Origin: Verrucomicrobiales bacterium
Lineage (GTDB): Bacteria; Verrucomicrobiota; Verrucomicrobiia; Verrucomicrobiales; DEV007
Length of the DNA stretch: 64,000 nt
Direction: 5' to 3'
Assembly: GCA_016795505.1 (NCBI GenBank)
Contig: JAEUHH010000062.1
Location: 124,001-188,000, forward strand
Shown: positions 58,307 through 64,000 of the stretch, in pieces
Numbering within the stretch: position 1 is the first letter of the stretch
Layout: the number at the start of each line of letters is the position of its first letter
Program-made: the position numbers and the translations under genes
Notes under the pieces: model-generated
Databases searched by the model: none
What the model was told of the DNA's origin: nothing
The model's input: only the letters and a program-made list of their open reading frames with translations

Positions 58307-59110
58307 ATGGTTCAAGTCGTCTTCCAGGGCCTCGGCCGGATCGCCATCCACTTTTTCGGCTACCTCGGACAGTTGGCCGACTTGTTCCGTGAGACCGCGG
58401 CCGCCTTTTTTATCGGAGTGAAACGCCCCGCCCTGATCGGCCGGCAGGTCGTCTCCATCGGCTTCGGCTCCCAGCTCGTGGTCGTCGTGACCGGGGCCTT
58501 CACCGGAGCGGTCTTCGCGGCCCAGACCTATTTCAAATTCAGCGAGTATGGTCTGGAGTCTGGCGTCGGCCCGGTCGTGTCCATCGCCATGTGCCGCGAG
58601 CTCGGGCCGGTGCTGACCGGGCTGATGGTCGCCGGTCGCGTCGGCGCTGCCATGGCGGCGGAGATCGGCACCATGAAAGTCACCGAGCAGATCGACGCCC
58701 TGCGCGCCATGGGGGTGCATCCCACCGATTACCTGGTCCTGCCGCGCGCGGCGGGCATGTTCTTCTCCATGCCCCTGCTCGTCGCCGAGGCCACCGGCTT
58801 CGGCATCGCAGCCTCCTATCTGGTGACCGTGGTCGGCTTTCGGGTGCCCTACTCCTGGTACGATGTGCAGATCCGGGCCTTCACCAGCCTCGGCGACATC
58901 TCGATCGGCATGATCAAAGGCTTCGTCTTTGGTGTCCTCATCGTCCTGATCTCCTGCCATCAGGGTCTGACGGCAAAAAACGGCGCCGTCGGCGTGGGTC
59001 GCAGCACCACCTCGGCGGTGGTCATTTCCAGCCTCGCCATCCTGATCTCGAACTTTTTCCTCTCCGTGCTGCTCAACTACTTCTTCCCGCTCGGCGGCTC
59101 CACCAACTGA
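58307..59110 (+). CDS. mlaE: MlaE-type ABC permease
   Basis: 267 residues. Inner-membrane permease of the Mla/MCE lipid transport system. The family core is [40 protein letters not shown] and [20 protein letters not shown], the standard MlaE segment. It is the first gene of the mlaE-mlaF-mlaD unit; 9 bases separate it from mlaF. Start [20 protein letters not shown]. Confidence 0.92.
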
Positions 59111-59119
59111 CCCCGACCG

Positions 59120-59947
59120 ATGTCCGACTCCGTCCATTTCATCGAAGTCAGCGACCTGAAAAAATCGCTCGGCACCCAGCAGGTCCTGCGCGGAGTGGAC
59201 CTGAAGATCCGCCGGGGCGAGTCCCTCGTCGTCCTCGGCCAGAGCGGCGAGGGGAAAAGCGTCTTCCTCAAACACCTCATCGGCCTCATCACCCCCGACT
59301 CCGGCAGCATCCGCATCGACGGCGAGGAGATCGTGGGAAAATCCGAGCGGGAACTCGCGCTCGTGCGGCGGAAAATCGGCGTGCTCTTCCAGGATGGCGC
59401 CCTGTTCGACTCCATGACCGTCGCGGAAAACGTCGCCTTTCCCCTGCGCGAGCGTGGCATCCGCAAGATCCCGGAGCTGCTCGAAAAAGCCACCGAAGCC
59501 CTGAAAGTCGTCGGCCTGGAGGCCCATCTGGCGAAAATGCCGATCAACATCTCCGGTGGCATGCGCAAGCGCGTCGCCCTGGCCCGCGCCATCATCACCC
59601 AGCCCGAGTGCATCCTCTACGACGAGCCCACCGCCGGACTCGACCCCATCGTCGCCGACAGCATCGACCACCTGATCCGCCGGCTGCAACGGGAGTTCCA
59701 CGTCACCTCCATCACCGTGACGCATGACATGAAAAGCATGTTTCACATCGCCGACCGCGTCGCCTACCTGCGCGAAGGACGGATCTACTTTCTCGGCACT
59801 CCCGAGGAAATACGCGCCAGCCAGGATCCGGCCATCCGGCGCTTCATCGAGGGCAAATCCGACGAAACCCTGAAAGAAGAAGCCGCGCAATCGTCCAAAA
59901 CCGGGGCCGGGACGGTCCCATTGGCGCCCCGAGACGAATCCGCGTAA
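59120..59947 (+). CDS. mlaF: MlaF-type ABC ATPase
   Basis: 275 residues. Walker [17 protein letters not shown], signature [16 protein letters not shown], Walker [14 protein letters not shown] and switch His in [15 protein letters not shown] match MlaF. It drives phospholipid or other lipid transport with MlaE and MlaD. The end has a helix ([17 protein letters not shown]) typical of the family. Repeat locus G follows before mlaD. Confidence 0.93.
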
Positions 59948-59957
59948 CATTACCGTC

Positions 59958-60000
59958 CGATCAGACCCTGTTGTCTCTCCGATCAAACAGGGTCTGATCG
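59958..60000. repeat. Dispersed 22-bp-period repeat, locus G (2 inverted units)
   Basis: Unit 1 is 59958-59978 (CGAT, CAG, ACCCTGT, TGT, CTCT). After one C, unit 2 is 59980-60000 (CGAT, CAA, ACAGGGT, CTG, ATCG), followed by GAAA. It lies in the 83-bp gap between mlaF and mlaD, so it is inside an apparent operon and would form a hairpin in the transcript. Confidence 0.85.
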
Positions 60001-60030
60001 GAAACCCAGCCCGAGAGGAAACCACACAGC

Positions 60031-61065
60031 ATGAGCGCCATACGCAAGGAGAGGACCGAGTTACTCGTCGGGCTGTTCGTCTTTTTCGGACTGGCCATCA
60101 TGGGCGCCCTGATTGTCCAATTCGGCCGATTCAGCGACCGCGTGCGGATGAAATACCGCATCGAGGTGACTTTTCCCGATGCCAGCGGCATCCGCGAAGG
60201 CTCGCCCGTGCAACTGGCCGGGCAGAAGATCGGCTTCGTCGCCGGCGAACCGAAGCTGAACGACGACTTCACCGGCGTCACCGTGCCGATCGACATCTAC
60301 GACGGCAACCGCATCCCGCTGGGCTCGGATTTCTCCATCGGGACGGCGGGATTGATGGGCGACACCTTCATCAAGGTCGGCATGCCGAAGGAGCCCGATG
60401 CCGTCTACCTCAAAGCCGGAGCCAAAGTCGAAGGCGGCACCCAGGGTGGCCTCACCGCGCTGCAGGACGACGCCACCGTGCTGCTCAAGGATATCAAGGC
60501 CGCCGTGGGCGACATCCGCACCGCCGTCCAGAGCCTCGACCGGGTCTTTGACAAGATCGAAAACGGCCTGCTCGGCGACGAAAACCTCGGCAATCTGAAG
60601 GACACCTTTGCCGAGCTGAAACAGACCGGGCAAAACCTCAACAAAGCCACTGCCAAGCTCGATCCGCTCGTCGATGACATGAAAGGCACCGTCACCGAGG
60701 CCAAAACGGCGATGACCAAGGCCGGCGAGACCTTTGACCAGGCCAAGGGCACCATCGCCAAACTCGACCCGGCGATCGAGGAGTTGGAGCCGACCATCGT
60801 CGAACTGCGGGAAACCGTGAAAAAGGCCCAAACCGCCCTCGGCAAAATCACGGACGGGAATGGCGCCGCGGCGGCGCTGATTTCCGACTCCGACCTGCGG
60901 CGGGACCTTGAAAGCTTCATGGACAAGCTGGATCGCTACGGCATCCTCGGCTATCCGAAGGAAAAGGGCGGCTCCTCGTCGGCGGGTTCCTCGGGTGGTT
61001 CCAGCGGCTCTGGCAGCGGCAGCTCGGGCGGCAGCCGGAGCTTGCTGCCTTTCCGGAAACGTTGA
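60031..61065 (+). CDS. mlaD: MlaD-type MCE substrate-binding protein
   Basis: 344 residues. One N-terminal membrane anchor ([20 protein letters not shown]) then the MCE domain ([42 protein letters not shown]), followed by a long helical coiled-coil-rich region ([20 protein letters not shown] and similar) and a Ser/Gly-rich C-terminus. MlaD-like proteins form hexameric lipid channels in the periplasm. The repeat between mlaF and mlaD does not break the operon order, but may affect mlaD expression. Confidence 0.9.
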
Positions 61066-62642: not shown

Positions 62643-64000
62643 TCACGGATCGCGCGGCTGGAGCGGCTCACCACCCGTGTCGCCGGCTTCGCCGGTGCCG
62701 GGCTGGGGCTCGACCCAGTCGTCTTCGGGATCGTCGATCGAAAGCCGGTCCATCATGGCGTACAGCTTGTTGTCCGTGATGCCGGGCACGTTGGTCAGAT
62801 CGTCGAAGGATCGGTAGGGCCGGTGCTCGATGAGGCGCTTTGCCAGCGTCGGACCGACGCCGGGGAGGGTCTGGAGCTGCTCTTCGGTGGCAGAATTGAG
62901 ATACACGACCGGCCCGGAGGGCTGACAGACGTCGTCATATGGATCGTGATCGGCCGTCGACGGACTCTCCGTATCTTTCCCGGCCACATGATCACTCTCC
63001 GTGATGGCATGCGGATCATCGGACCAGTCTTTCACTGGCTCGTGGTGGGGATCGTCGTGGTGATAGTCGGAGTGGTAGGGATCATGGCCCGGATCGTAGG
63101 GATGGTCGGGGTGCTGATCGTGAGCGTAGTGCGGGTGGTGATGGTCGTGCCAGCTCGCATCGTGGTTGGTGTCGACCGGATGGCCGTAGGGATCGTGAGC
63201 GATGTGGCTCTGGTCTTCCTGGTAGAGATGGGCATGCTCGCGCTCGTATTGCTCGATTTCCTTGCGGTGGACCTCGGCTTTTTCCTCTTCGGTCAGTTCG
63301 TCGGGAGATTTCTCCAGCAGCAGGGCATAGCGGTCCTGGCGCTCTTTTTCCTCGGCCAAGCGGGCCTTTTCCCGCGACCGTTCGATGCCCCAGGCGATCC
63401 AGATGCAGATCTCGTAGAGAATGATCAACGGACCAGCCAACAGGCTCAGCGTCACCATGTCCGGAGTGGGCGTGAGGATCGCGGCCACCACCAGGATCAC
63501 GACGATGGCATAGGACCGCGTGTTGCGCATCACCCGGCCGGTCAGCAACTCCAGTTTCACCAGAATGATGACCACGATGGGCAACTGGAAGCTGATCCCG
63601 AAGACCAGCACCAACCGGGTGACAAAGGAGATGTACTCCCCGATCCGGTAGTTCACCATCTTCACGGTGTCGTTGCTCAGGATGATCTTATCGAGCGCGG
63701 GATCGTAGTAGAAATTGAGCTTCGAGCCCTTTTCCGCGGCCAGCAGGTTCGTGATGTAGTGGCGGATGGCGGCTTTCATCTCCGGATCCAGCTCTTTGAT
63801 CCCCGGCGGCGCGGTCGCCAGTGCTCCCGCAGCAGCGGTGGCAGCCGCACCCGCCGCAGGTGGAGCGGGCGGAGCCACCGCAGGAGGAGCGGCGGCCTGA
63901 GTTCCCGAGGCGACCGCTCCGGCATCGGGCAGAACATTGACCGGGACGAATTGGTGCCCCTCCTCGGTCGCGGCGGACTTGATCACCCCGACCCGGTCCA
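62643..64000 (-). CDS. tatC: TatC fused to His-rich linker and HhH domain, 5'-truncated
   Basis: The frame is open to the right edge, so the N-terminus is outside the window (at least 452 residues remain). TatC core motifs are MVNYRIGEYISFVTRLVLVF, GISFQLPIVV and ILTPTPDMVTLSLLAGPLII, equivalent to the last membrane segments of the twin-arginine translocase. An Ala/Pro-rich insertion precedes them (SGTQAAAPPAVAPPAPPAA). After the last membrane segment there is a charged coiled coil (REKARLAEEKERQDRYALLL), a strongly His/Asp-rich stretch near 63030-63190 (such as WHDHHHPHYAHDQHPDHPYD), and a ComEA-like helix-hairpin-helix (VVYLNSATEEQLQTLPGVGP, TLAKRLIEHRPYRSFDDLTN). Tat-exported DUF1501 protein at 18584 is a likely client. 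Confidence 0.88.
   Translation of the reverse strand, partial: DRVGVIKSAATEEGHQFVPVNVLPDAGAVASGTQAAAPPAVAPPAPPAAGAAATAAAGALATAPPGIKELDPEMKAAIRHYITNLLAAEKGSKLNFYYDPALDKIILSNDTVKMVNYRIGEYISFVTRLVLVFGISFQLPIVVIILVKLELLTGRVMRNTRSYAIVVILVVAAILTPTPDMVTLSLLAGPLIILYEICIWIAWGIERSREKARLAEEKERQDRYALLLEKSPDELTEEEKAEVHRKEIEQYEREHAHLYQEDQSHIAHDPYGHPVDTNHDASWHDHHHPHYAHDQHPDHPYDPGHDPYHSDYHHDDPHHEPVKDWSDDPHAITESDHVAGKDTESPSTADHDPYDDVCQPSGPVVYLNSATEEQLQTLPGVGPTLAKRLIEHRPYRSFDDLTNVPGITDNKLYAMMDRLSIDDPEDDWVEPQPGTGEAGDTGGEPLQPRDP

Follow-up and report, generated by a model that had tools for sequence, protein, structure and literature searches.

A TatC protein translocase with a C-terminal helix-hairpin-helix domain in one family of Verrucomicrobiota

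Introduction

The Tat pathway exports proteins that are already folded and often loaded with a cofactor, and TatC is among the most conserved of membrane proteins; to our knowledge, its known variation lies in the periplasmic loops. Helix-hairpin-helix (HhH) domains normally grip DNA. Why would a TatC carry one? The question is raised by a gene at the right edge of a 64,000-nucleotide stretch of DNA from a Verrucomicrobiales bacterium (the window), in which an earlier note, made from the sequence alone, had read a TatC core followed by a charged helix, a His/Asp-rich stretch and an HhH module.

Results

The tatC ORF at 62643-64000 (minus strand) stays open up to the window edge, and on the contig the gene continues to G000:C9:188538, which would be position 64538 in the numbering of the window. 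Read past the edge, the whole gene (L003:3644-5539, minus strand, contig G000:C9) encodes 631 amino acids in a single frame with no internal stops. The product is TatC by every test that we made: it matches PF00902 (E 3.5e-55, 187.5 bits against a Pfam cutoff of 25.1) and the NCBIfam tatC equivalog TIGR00945 (156.9 bits against a cutoff of 132.7), with the profile matches falling in two stretches that are parted by an insertion in the P2 loop. It also carries a new domain fusion: PF12836 (HHH_3) matches residues 544-598 (E 1.3e-12, 48 bits against a cutoff of 27), and Pfam HHH likewise exceeds its cutoff. The full-length protein contains all three features that the earlier note had read after the core: the charged helix, the stretch rich in His and Asp, and the VVYLNSATEEQLQTLPGVGP module. 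From the N- to the C-terminus, the order is TM1-3, the P2-loop insertion, TM4-6, a charged helix, an Asp/Glu/His-rich linker, Cys538, the HhH domain and a short acidic end, so that the extra cytoplasmic part after TM6 comprises about 240 residues. The features in the window are:

62643..64000, minus strand: 3' part of tatC, residues 181-631 of 631 plus the stop (ORF; whole gene from the contig)
63648..63998, minus strand: P2-loop (periplasmic) insertion between TM3 and TM4, residues ~181-297 (architecture comparison, conservation)
63648..63794, minus strand: conserved mini-domain of the P2 insertion, residues 249-297 (consensus of 40 sequences)
63369..63641, minus strand: TM4-TM6 of the TatC core, residues 300-390 (profile match and L034 model)
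63231..63383, minus strand: charged, cytoplasmic helical extension of TM6, residues 386-436 (sequence and L034 model)
62928..63230, minus strand: Asp/Glu/His-rich disordered linker, residues 437-537 (composition and L034 model)
62925..62927, minus strand: Cys538, in a C-x-P/A-x-G motif before the HhH
62733..62912, minus strand: ComEA/PsbU-type HhH domain, residues 543-602 (Pfam, AlphaFold2 model, fold matches)
62853..62861, minus strand: hairpin 1, GVG, residues 560-562, canonical (hairpin comparison)
62775..62783, minus strand: hairpin 2, GIT, residues 586-588, third Gly lost (hairpin comparison)

Could the fusion be an artefact? A frameshift, an assembly joint or a chimera is ruled out by 43 complete, single-frame TatC tails in related genomes, and a frameshift is also contradicted by purifying selection on the codons of the HhH and linker. 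The Pfam score and the recurrence across genomes likewise rule out a chance HhH match.

Around the gene, an ORF at L003:7777-8706 (minus strand), upstream of tatC, argH and a Fur-like gene, contains AEGRAEGR repeats and by eye resembles the PD-(D/E)XK transposase family. At window positions 58307-61065, three consecutive plus-strand ORFs resemble, from their sequence, an Mla/MCE lipid transport system (permease, ATPase, MCE protein); they stand upstream of an aminotransferase gene that is convergent with tatC.

We modelled the window HhH segment with AlphaFold2 from 5 sequences (mean pLDDT 77.6; 86-90 within the domain), and its fold matches were 2duy, 8dss, Tex, PsbU and a type II secretion pseudopilin. 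A full-length model was made for the relative L034 (20 sequences). Its core aligned to TatC 4hts over 228 of 228 residues (Z 23.0, rmsd 2.3), which shows the six-helix fold of TatC; a function in translocation is predicted. In the same model, the TM6 helix runs on and is followed by a second helix (pLDDT ~94-96), the linker scores 35-46 and the HhH 87-96. The tail thus appears, in the model, as a folded knob on a flexible arm. The arm should be cytoplasmic because both TatC termini are (PMC10197872), which we infer from the topology of TatC in E. coli. The earlier note had suggested an adaptor on either side of the membrane; the cytoplasmic side is the one supported, the stretch after TM6 being strongly charged.

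The linker is rich in His and in acidic residues: the stretch between the core and the HhH is 17% His and 27% Asp plus Glu, and tails in the clade with the P2 insertion contain 9-29 His each. We found no conserved His spacing among the tails compared, and linker length varies. The Cys ahead of the HhH is invariant (39/39) in members with the P2 insertion, and members of the genera g9 and g18 keep the HhH and lack the CxPxG motif.

The Ala/Pro-rich insertion of the earlier note exists, and it had been placed wrongly: it lies in the P2 loop between TM3 and TM4 and not before the membrane core, an error that arose because the window cuts the gene and leaves TM1-3 out of view. The Ala/Pro-rich part is a variable spacer inside this insertion (about 115-118 residues in the window TatC, 93-199 in relatives) and is followed by the conserved small domain, which the L034 model builds as a helix and beta strands with low to moderate confidence (pLDDT 56-81). 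On the TatC core tree, the P2 insertion was gained once, inside the HhH-TatC clade; the TatC of genome G011 has the HhH and no P2 insertion. The HhH-TatCs of g18 (L021, L023, L027) also lack it and have ~90 extra residues in the first periplasmic loop.

How widespread is the fusion? TatC was present in 57/57 relatives searched, and for the architecture comparison we fetched TatC from 75 genomes of the family f1. Complete HhH tails numbered 43, in genera g1, g2, g7, g9, g11, g16 and g18; two further HhH-TatCs, in G015 (g13) and G023 (g7), break off at the end of a contig, and their HhH part lies on a different one. HhH-TatC thus occurs in 45 genomes and eight genera of one uncultivated Verrucomicrobiota family. 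A search of 387 genomes of the order with the HhH profile gave 45 hits of the TatC type, each at E 1.9e-25 or better and each from family f1, and none outside it; the next hit (9e-20) lies in a 166-residue frame, and it and the weaker ones are in frames other than TatC. Among the matches listed for a 387-genome phylum sample, in some genomes of which co-location of HhH and TatC was judged by frame size only, none was an HhH-TatC outside f1; other strong HhH hits were on contigs other than that of tatC, or 87 kb away in G223. In the genomes sampled, the HhH and His-rich parts are conserved within one family only, and a role for them was not found in the literature searched.

A tree of TatC cores without tails (quick method, SH-aLRT support, no bootstrap), which included the g18 genomes although their P1 loop splits the TatC profile match, placed all HhH-bearing TatCs and the two truncated ones on one side of a branch (SH-aLRT 95.8). 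The HhH-TatCs therefore form one clade, implying a single fusion event, and the HhH has been retained in every complete descendant of that fusion. By the Nei-Gojobori method on close pairs, dN/dS was 0.00-0.12 for the HhH (11 scorable pairs), 0.00-0.12 for the TatC core, 0.06-0.25 for the linker and 0.04-0.25 for the P2 insertion, rough values since dS was above 1 or saturated in several pairs. The HhH is therefore constrained nearly as strictly as the core; the linker is also under constraint, more loosely than the HhH.

Tails are not confined to HhH bearers. Sister-clade TatCs (L024, L025, L028-L031, L056, L135-L141; one clade of 15, support 97) have, instead of the HhH, a YYSGPTEELK module and a long charged helix with ELKAELKEEL repeats, which cap a similar acidic His/Asp/Tyr-rich tail. 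In further lineages, the acidic TatC tails are almost without His. A SAP-like tail end in L053:808-2424 (G005) matched SAP_new25 at E 0.012, under the Pfam cutoff, and is not claimed; G005 has a single TatA.

Does the HhH have the features by which its relatives bind DNA? K63 of Vibrio cholerae ComEA (PMC3879209) and K164 of Bacillus subtilis ComEA (PMC9747964) are central for DNA binding, and in our alignment this lysine stands three residues after the third Gly of hairpin 1 (GIGPAK in Geobacillus). In the TatC HhH domains (n=43), several features differ: (i) the ComEA-lysine position holds Leu in 24, Met in 16, Asp in 2 and Ile in 1, Leu being the residue of the window protein, and Lys or Arg in 0/43; (ii) net charge averages -5.2 and runs from -14 to 0, compared with an average of +0.5 for a set of 25 standalone HhH domains from separate proteins of the window genome and relatives; and (iii) hairpin 2 still has its third Gly in 20/43 and has lost it in 23/43, against 25/25 with the Gly in the standalone set (Fisher p 1.8e-6, which overstates independence, the TatC HhH rows being related). 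All four hairpin glycines are present in 20/43, and the pair of GxG hairpins is not a property of the group as a whole. Hairpin 1 keeps GxG in 35/43 and is degraded in 8/43, with forms such as GMD, GVD, GIN and GIE. The lysine position by itself fails to separate TatC from standalone domains, because the standalone proteins mostly lack Lys there too (Thr in 19/25); the Thermus ComEA-related structure 2duy also has Leu. DNA binding, the usual role of HhH modules, is thus disfavoured on sequence grounds, and the case against it is clearest in g11 and part of g2, where the GMD, GVD, GIN and GIE hairpins occur. The window HhH is less extreme and may bind nucleic acid weakly, since its hairpin 1 is intact and its net charge only -2.

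Other HhH proteins in genomes of the family (L104, L105, L183-L187, L190, L191) are small, single-TM ComEA-like proteins or a YDRDYM-type membrane protein, and some have an upstream region that by eye resembles a staphylococcal-nuclease-type fold.

Which partners does this TatC have? In the window genome, tatA encodes an ordinary 91-residue protein on a different contig from tatC. None of eight TatA-family proteins scanned in the window genome and relatives reached the TatB cutoff (TIGR01410, 56.5 bits; scores 20-37 bits), and all eight are of the TatA/E type. HhH-TatC genomes have one TatA in 33/42 cases, against a tandem TatA pair in 15/16 other family members, an association that is confounded by shared ancestry and drawn in part from incomplete genomes. 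Around the TatA loci of g2, no second TatA-like ORF was found; g18, g11, g16 and G002 combine HhH-TatC with two TatA. DUF1501 is matched 96 times in the 6.5-Mb window genome and occurs in only 2/14 control genomes; many of the 96 we take to be Tat cargo. One of them, at L003:8757-10493, a few kb away from tatC, has a Tat-like motif, TRRQLF.

Discussion

What does an HhH domain do on a translocase? Our candidate, to which we give an even chance, is a module that docks proteins, tethered to a translocase made of TatA and TatC only. The single TatC of this Verrucomicrobiota Tat system, with TatA present and TatB not recognised, continues after TM6 into a charged helix, a flexible, acidic, His/Tyr-rich arm of ~100 residues and the folded HhH end, which would serve as a protein-docking knob and not as a DNA clamp. 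On such an arm, the HhH might find a partner in the cytoplasm or at the membrane periphery, be it a Tat component, a chaperone or a class of cargo, and keep it close to the signal-peptide receptor. Each translocase would have three such arms, because TatC is trimeric in solved core complexes. Docking is favoured because the fold is kept while its nucleic-acid features erode, as in PsbU, because sister lineages put a different small module on the same kind of arm, as would be expected if the arm serves to present a module, and because selection on the HhH is strong. That the HhH docks protein at all, and which partner it would choose, is our guess.

Four other explanations were weighed against protein docking. 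The arm and its invariant Cys could bind a metal (Zn, Ni, Cu or Fe) and sense it or hand it to exported metalloproteins, with the HhH only an end-cap. The His content of the tails, repeats of the DPYH/DPHH/YHD type that also occur in relatives without the HhH, the fixed place of the Cys and the cofactor-loaded nature of much Tat cargo (general knowledge) all fit; nevertheless, metal binding is rather doubtful, for the His spacing is not conserved, the linker varies in length and evolves faster than the HhH, g9 and g18 have an HhH without CxPxG, other lineages have acidic tails nearly free of His, and a His-rich acidic sequence can also be mere composition. Alternatively, the tail and the P2 insertion may make up for missing small subunits, with the HhH arm doing the job of a second TatA or of TatB. 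The prevalence of a single TatA, the g2 loci and the TatB scan agree with such compensation, which we nonetheless find unlikely given the genomes that have the HhH and two TatA, the HhH of G011 without a P2 insertion, and the confounding and incompleteness noted above. A quite improbable extension combines these elements: a rebuilt receptor, in which a TatC with its own cytoplasmic docking domain and periplasmic P2 domain would let a one-TatA, TatB-less system handle an unusually large cargo load (the 96 DUF1501 matches), the HhH arm partly replacing TatB.

The HhH might instead bind DNA or RNA and act as a tether that keeps the translocase at the nucleoid or at nascent transcripts and ribosomes, coupling expression of Tat cargo to its export. 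Nucleic-acid binding is at home in the HhH family, in ComEA and, by fold match, in Tex, RuvA and XPF, and the TatC domains often keep hairpin 1 and have Lys at its +2 position in 23/43. Yet an acidic domain on an acidic arm, the never-basic ComEA contact position, the degraded hairpins and purifying selection that stays strong though binding features are lost make this tether quite unlikely. Most improbable is that the domain is a neutral decoration, carried along without function: linker length and composition do drift, and a function is not known from experiment, but every complete descendant of one fusion, across eight genera, has kept the tail, and the dN/dS of the HhH is close to that of the TatC core.

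A conserved, folded module at the cytoplasmic face of TatC, found family-wide where TatB is not recognised, points to a new partner or regulator of folded-protein export. HhH-TatC is also a natural test of cargo recognition in a TatA/TatC-only system, and the docking role proposed for the HhH would, if true, give a basic export machine a new handle.

How does this protein compare with known systems? ComEA is close in fold (2duy: Z 10.9, rmsd 2.2, 63 aligned, 40% identical; Geobacillus 8dss: Z 10.5, rmsd 2.6, 72 aligned, 36% identical) and, as here, a flexible linker joins the domain to the part in the membrane, in ComEA an anchor (PMC9747964). However, ComEA faces the periplasm and binds DNA by hairpin-associated lysines, whereas the TatC HhH is presumably cytoplasmic, is acidic and lacks that lysine. 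PsbU, the 12 kDa extrinsic protein of photosystem II, belongs to the same HhH family: the window TatC exceeds the Pfam PsbU cutoff (31.0 against 24.5), as does L010, and has PTLAK..I and PG.TD in common with PsbU, but scores far below the PsbU equivalog NF002708 (30.7 bits against a cutoff of 85). PsbU has a structural role as one subunit in a protein complex; it is a separate, lumenal photosystem II protein without TatC. Alongside PsbU, HhH-TatC may be another case of the HhH fold shifting from DNA binding to protein contacts.

Among Tat systems, E. coli TatABC has the same six-helix TatC core, but its TatC (266-residue chain, 9dzz) is without a P2 insert or an HhH tail and acts together with TatB. 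We searched the open-access literature for a TatC with a C-terminal HhH, or for relevant TatC fusions, and found none. Among the closest known TatCs are the 'atypical' ones of Myxococcus xanthus (9e03) and Nitratifractor salsuginis (9e02), matched here by phmmer and by structure alignment, which combine the same core fold with large periplasmic-loop inserts (PMC13323110). The window TatC shares with that of M. xanthus a large insert in the P2 loop. Within the core complex the M. xanthus insert folds as a trimer, and that of N. salsuginis is disordered (PMC13323110). Our alignment with M. xanthus TatC, in which the insert was compared within the longer chain, covered 246 residues at an rmsd of 6.8, and the two inserts may or may not have a fold in common. 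In these two chains the best-matched core stops near residue 390 of 409 and 357 of 382, with no HhH match, and their core complexes were solved with TatB, which is not recognised here. Large periplasmic-loop inserts in TatC were already known; the C-terminal HhH fusion is new.
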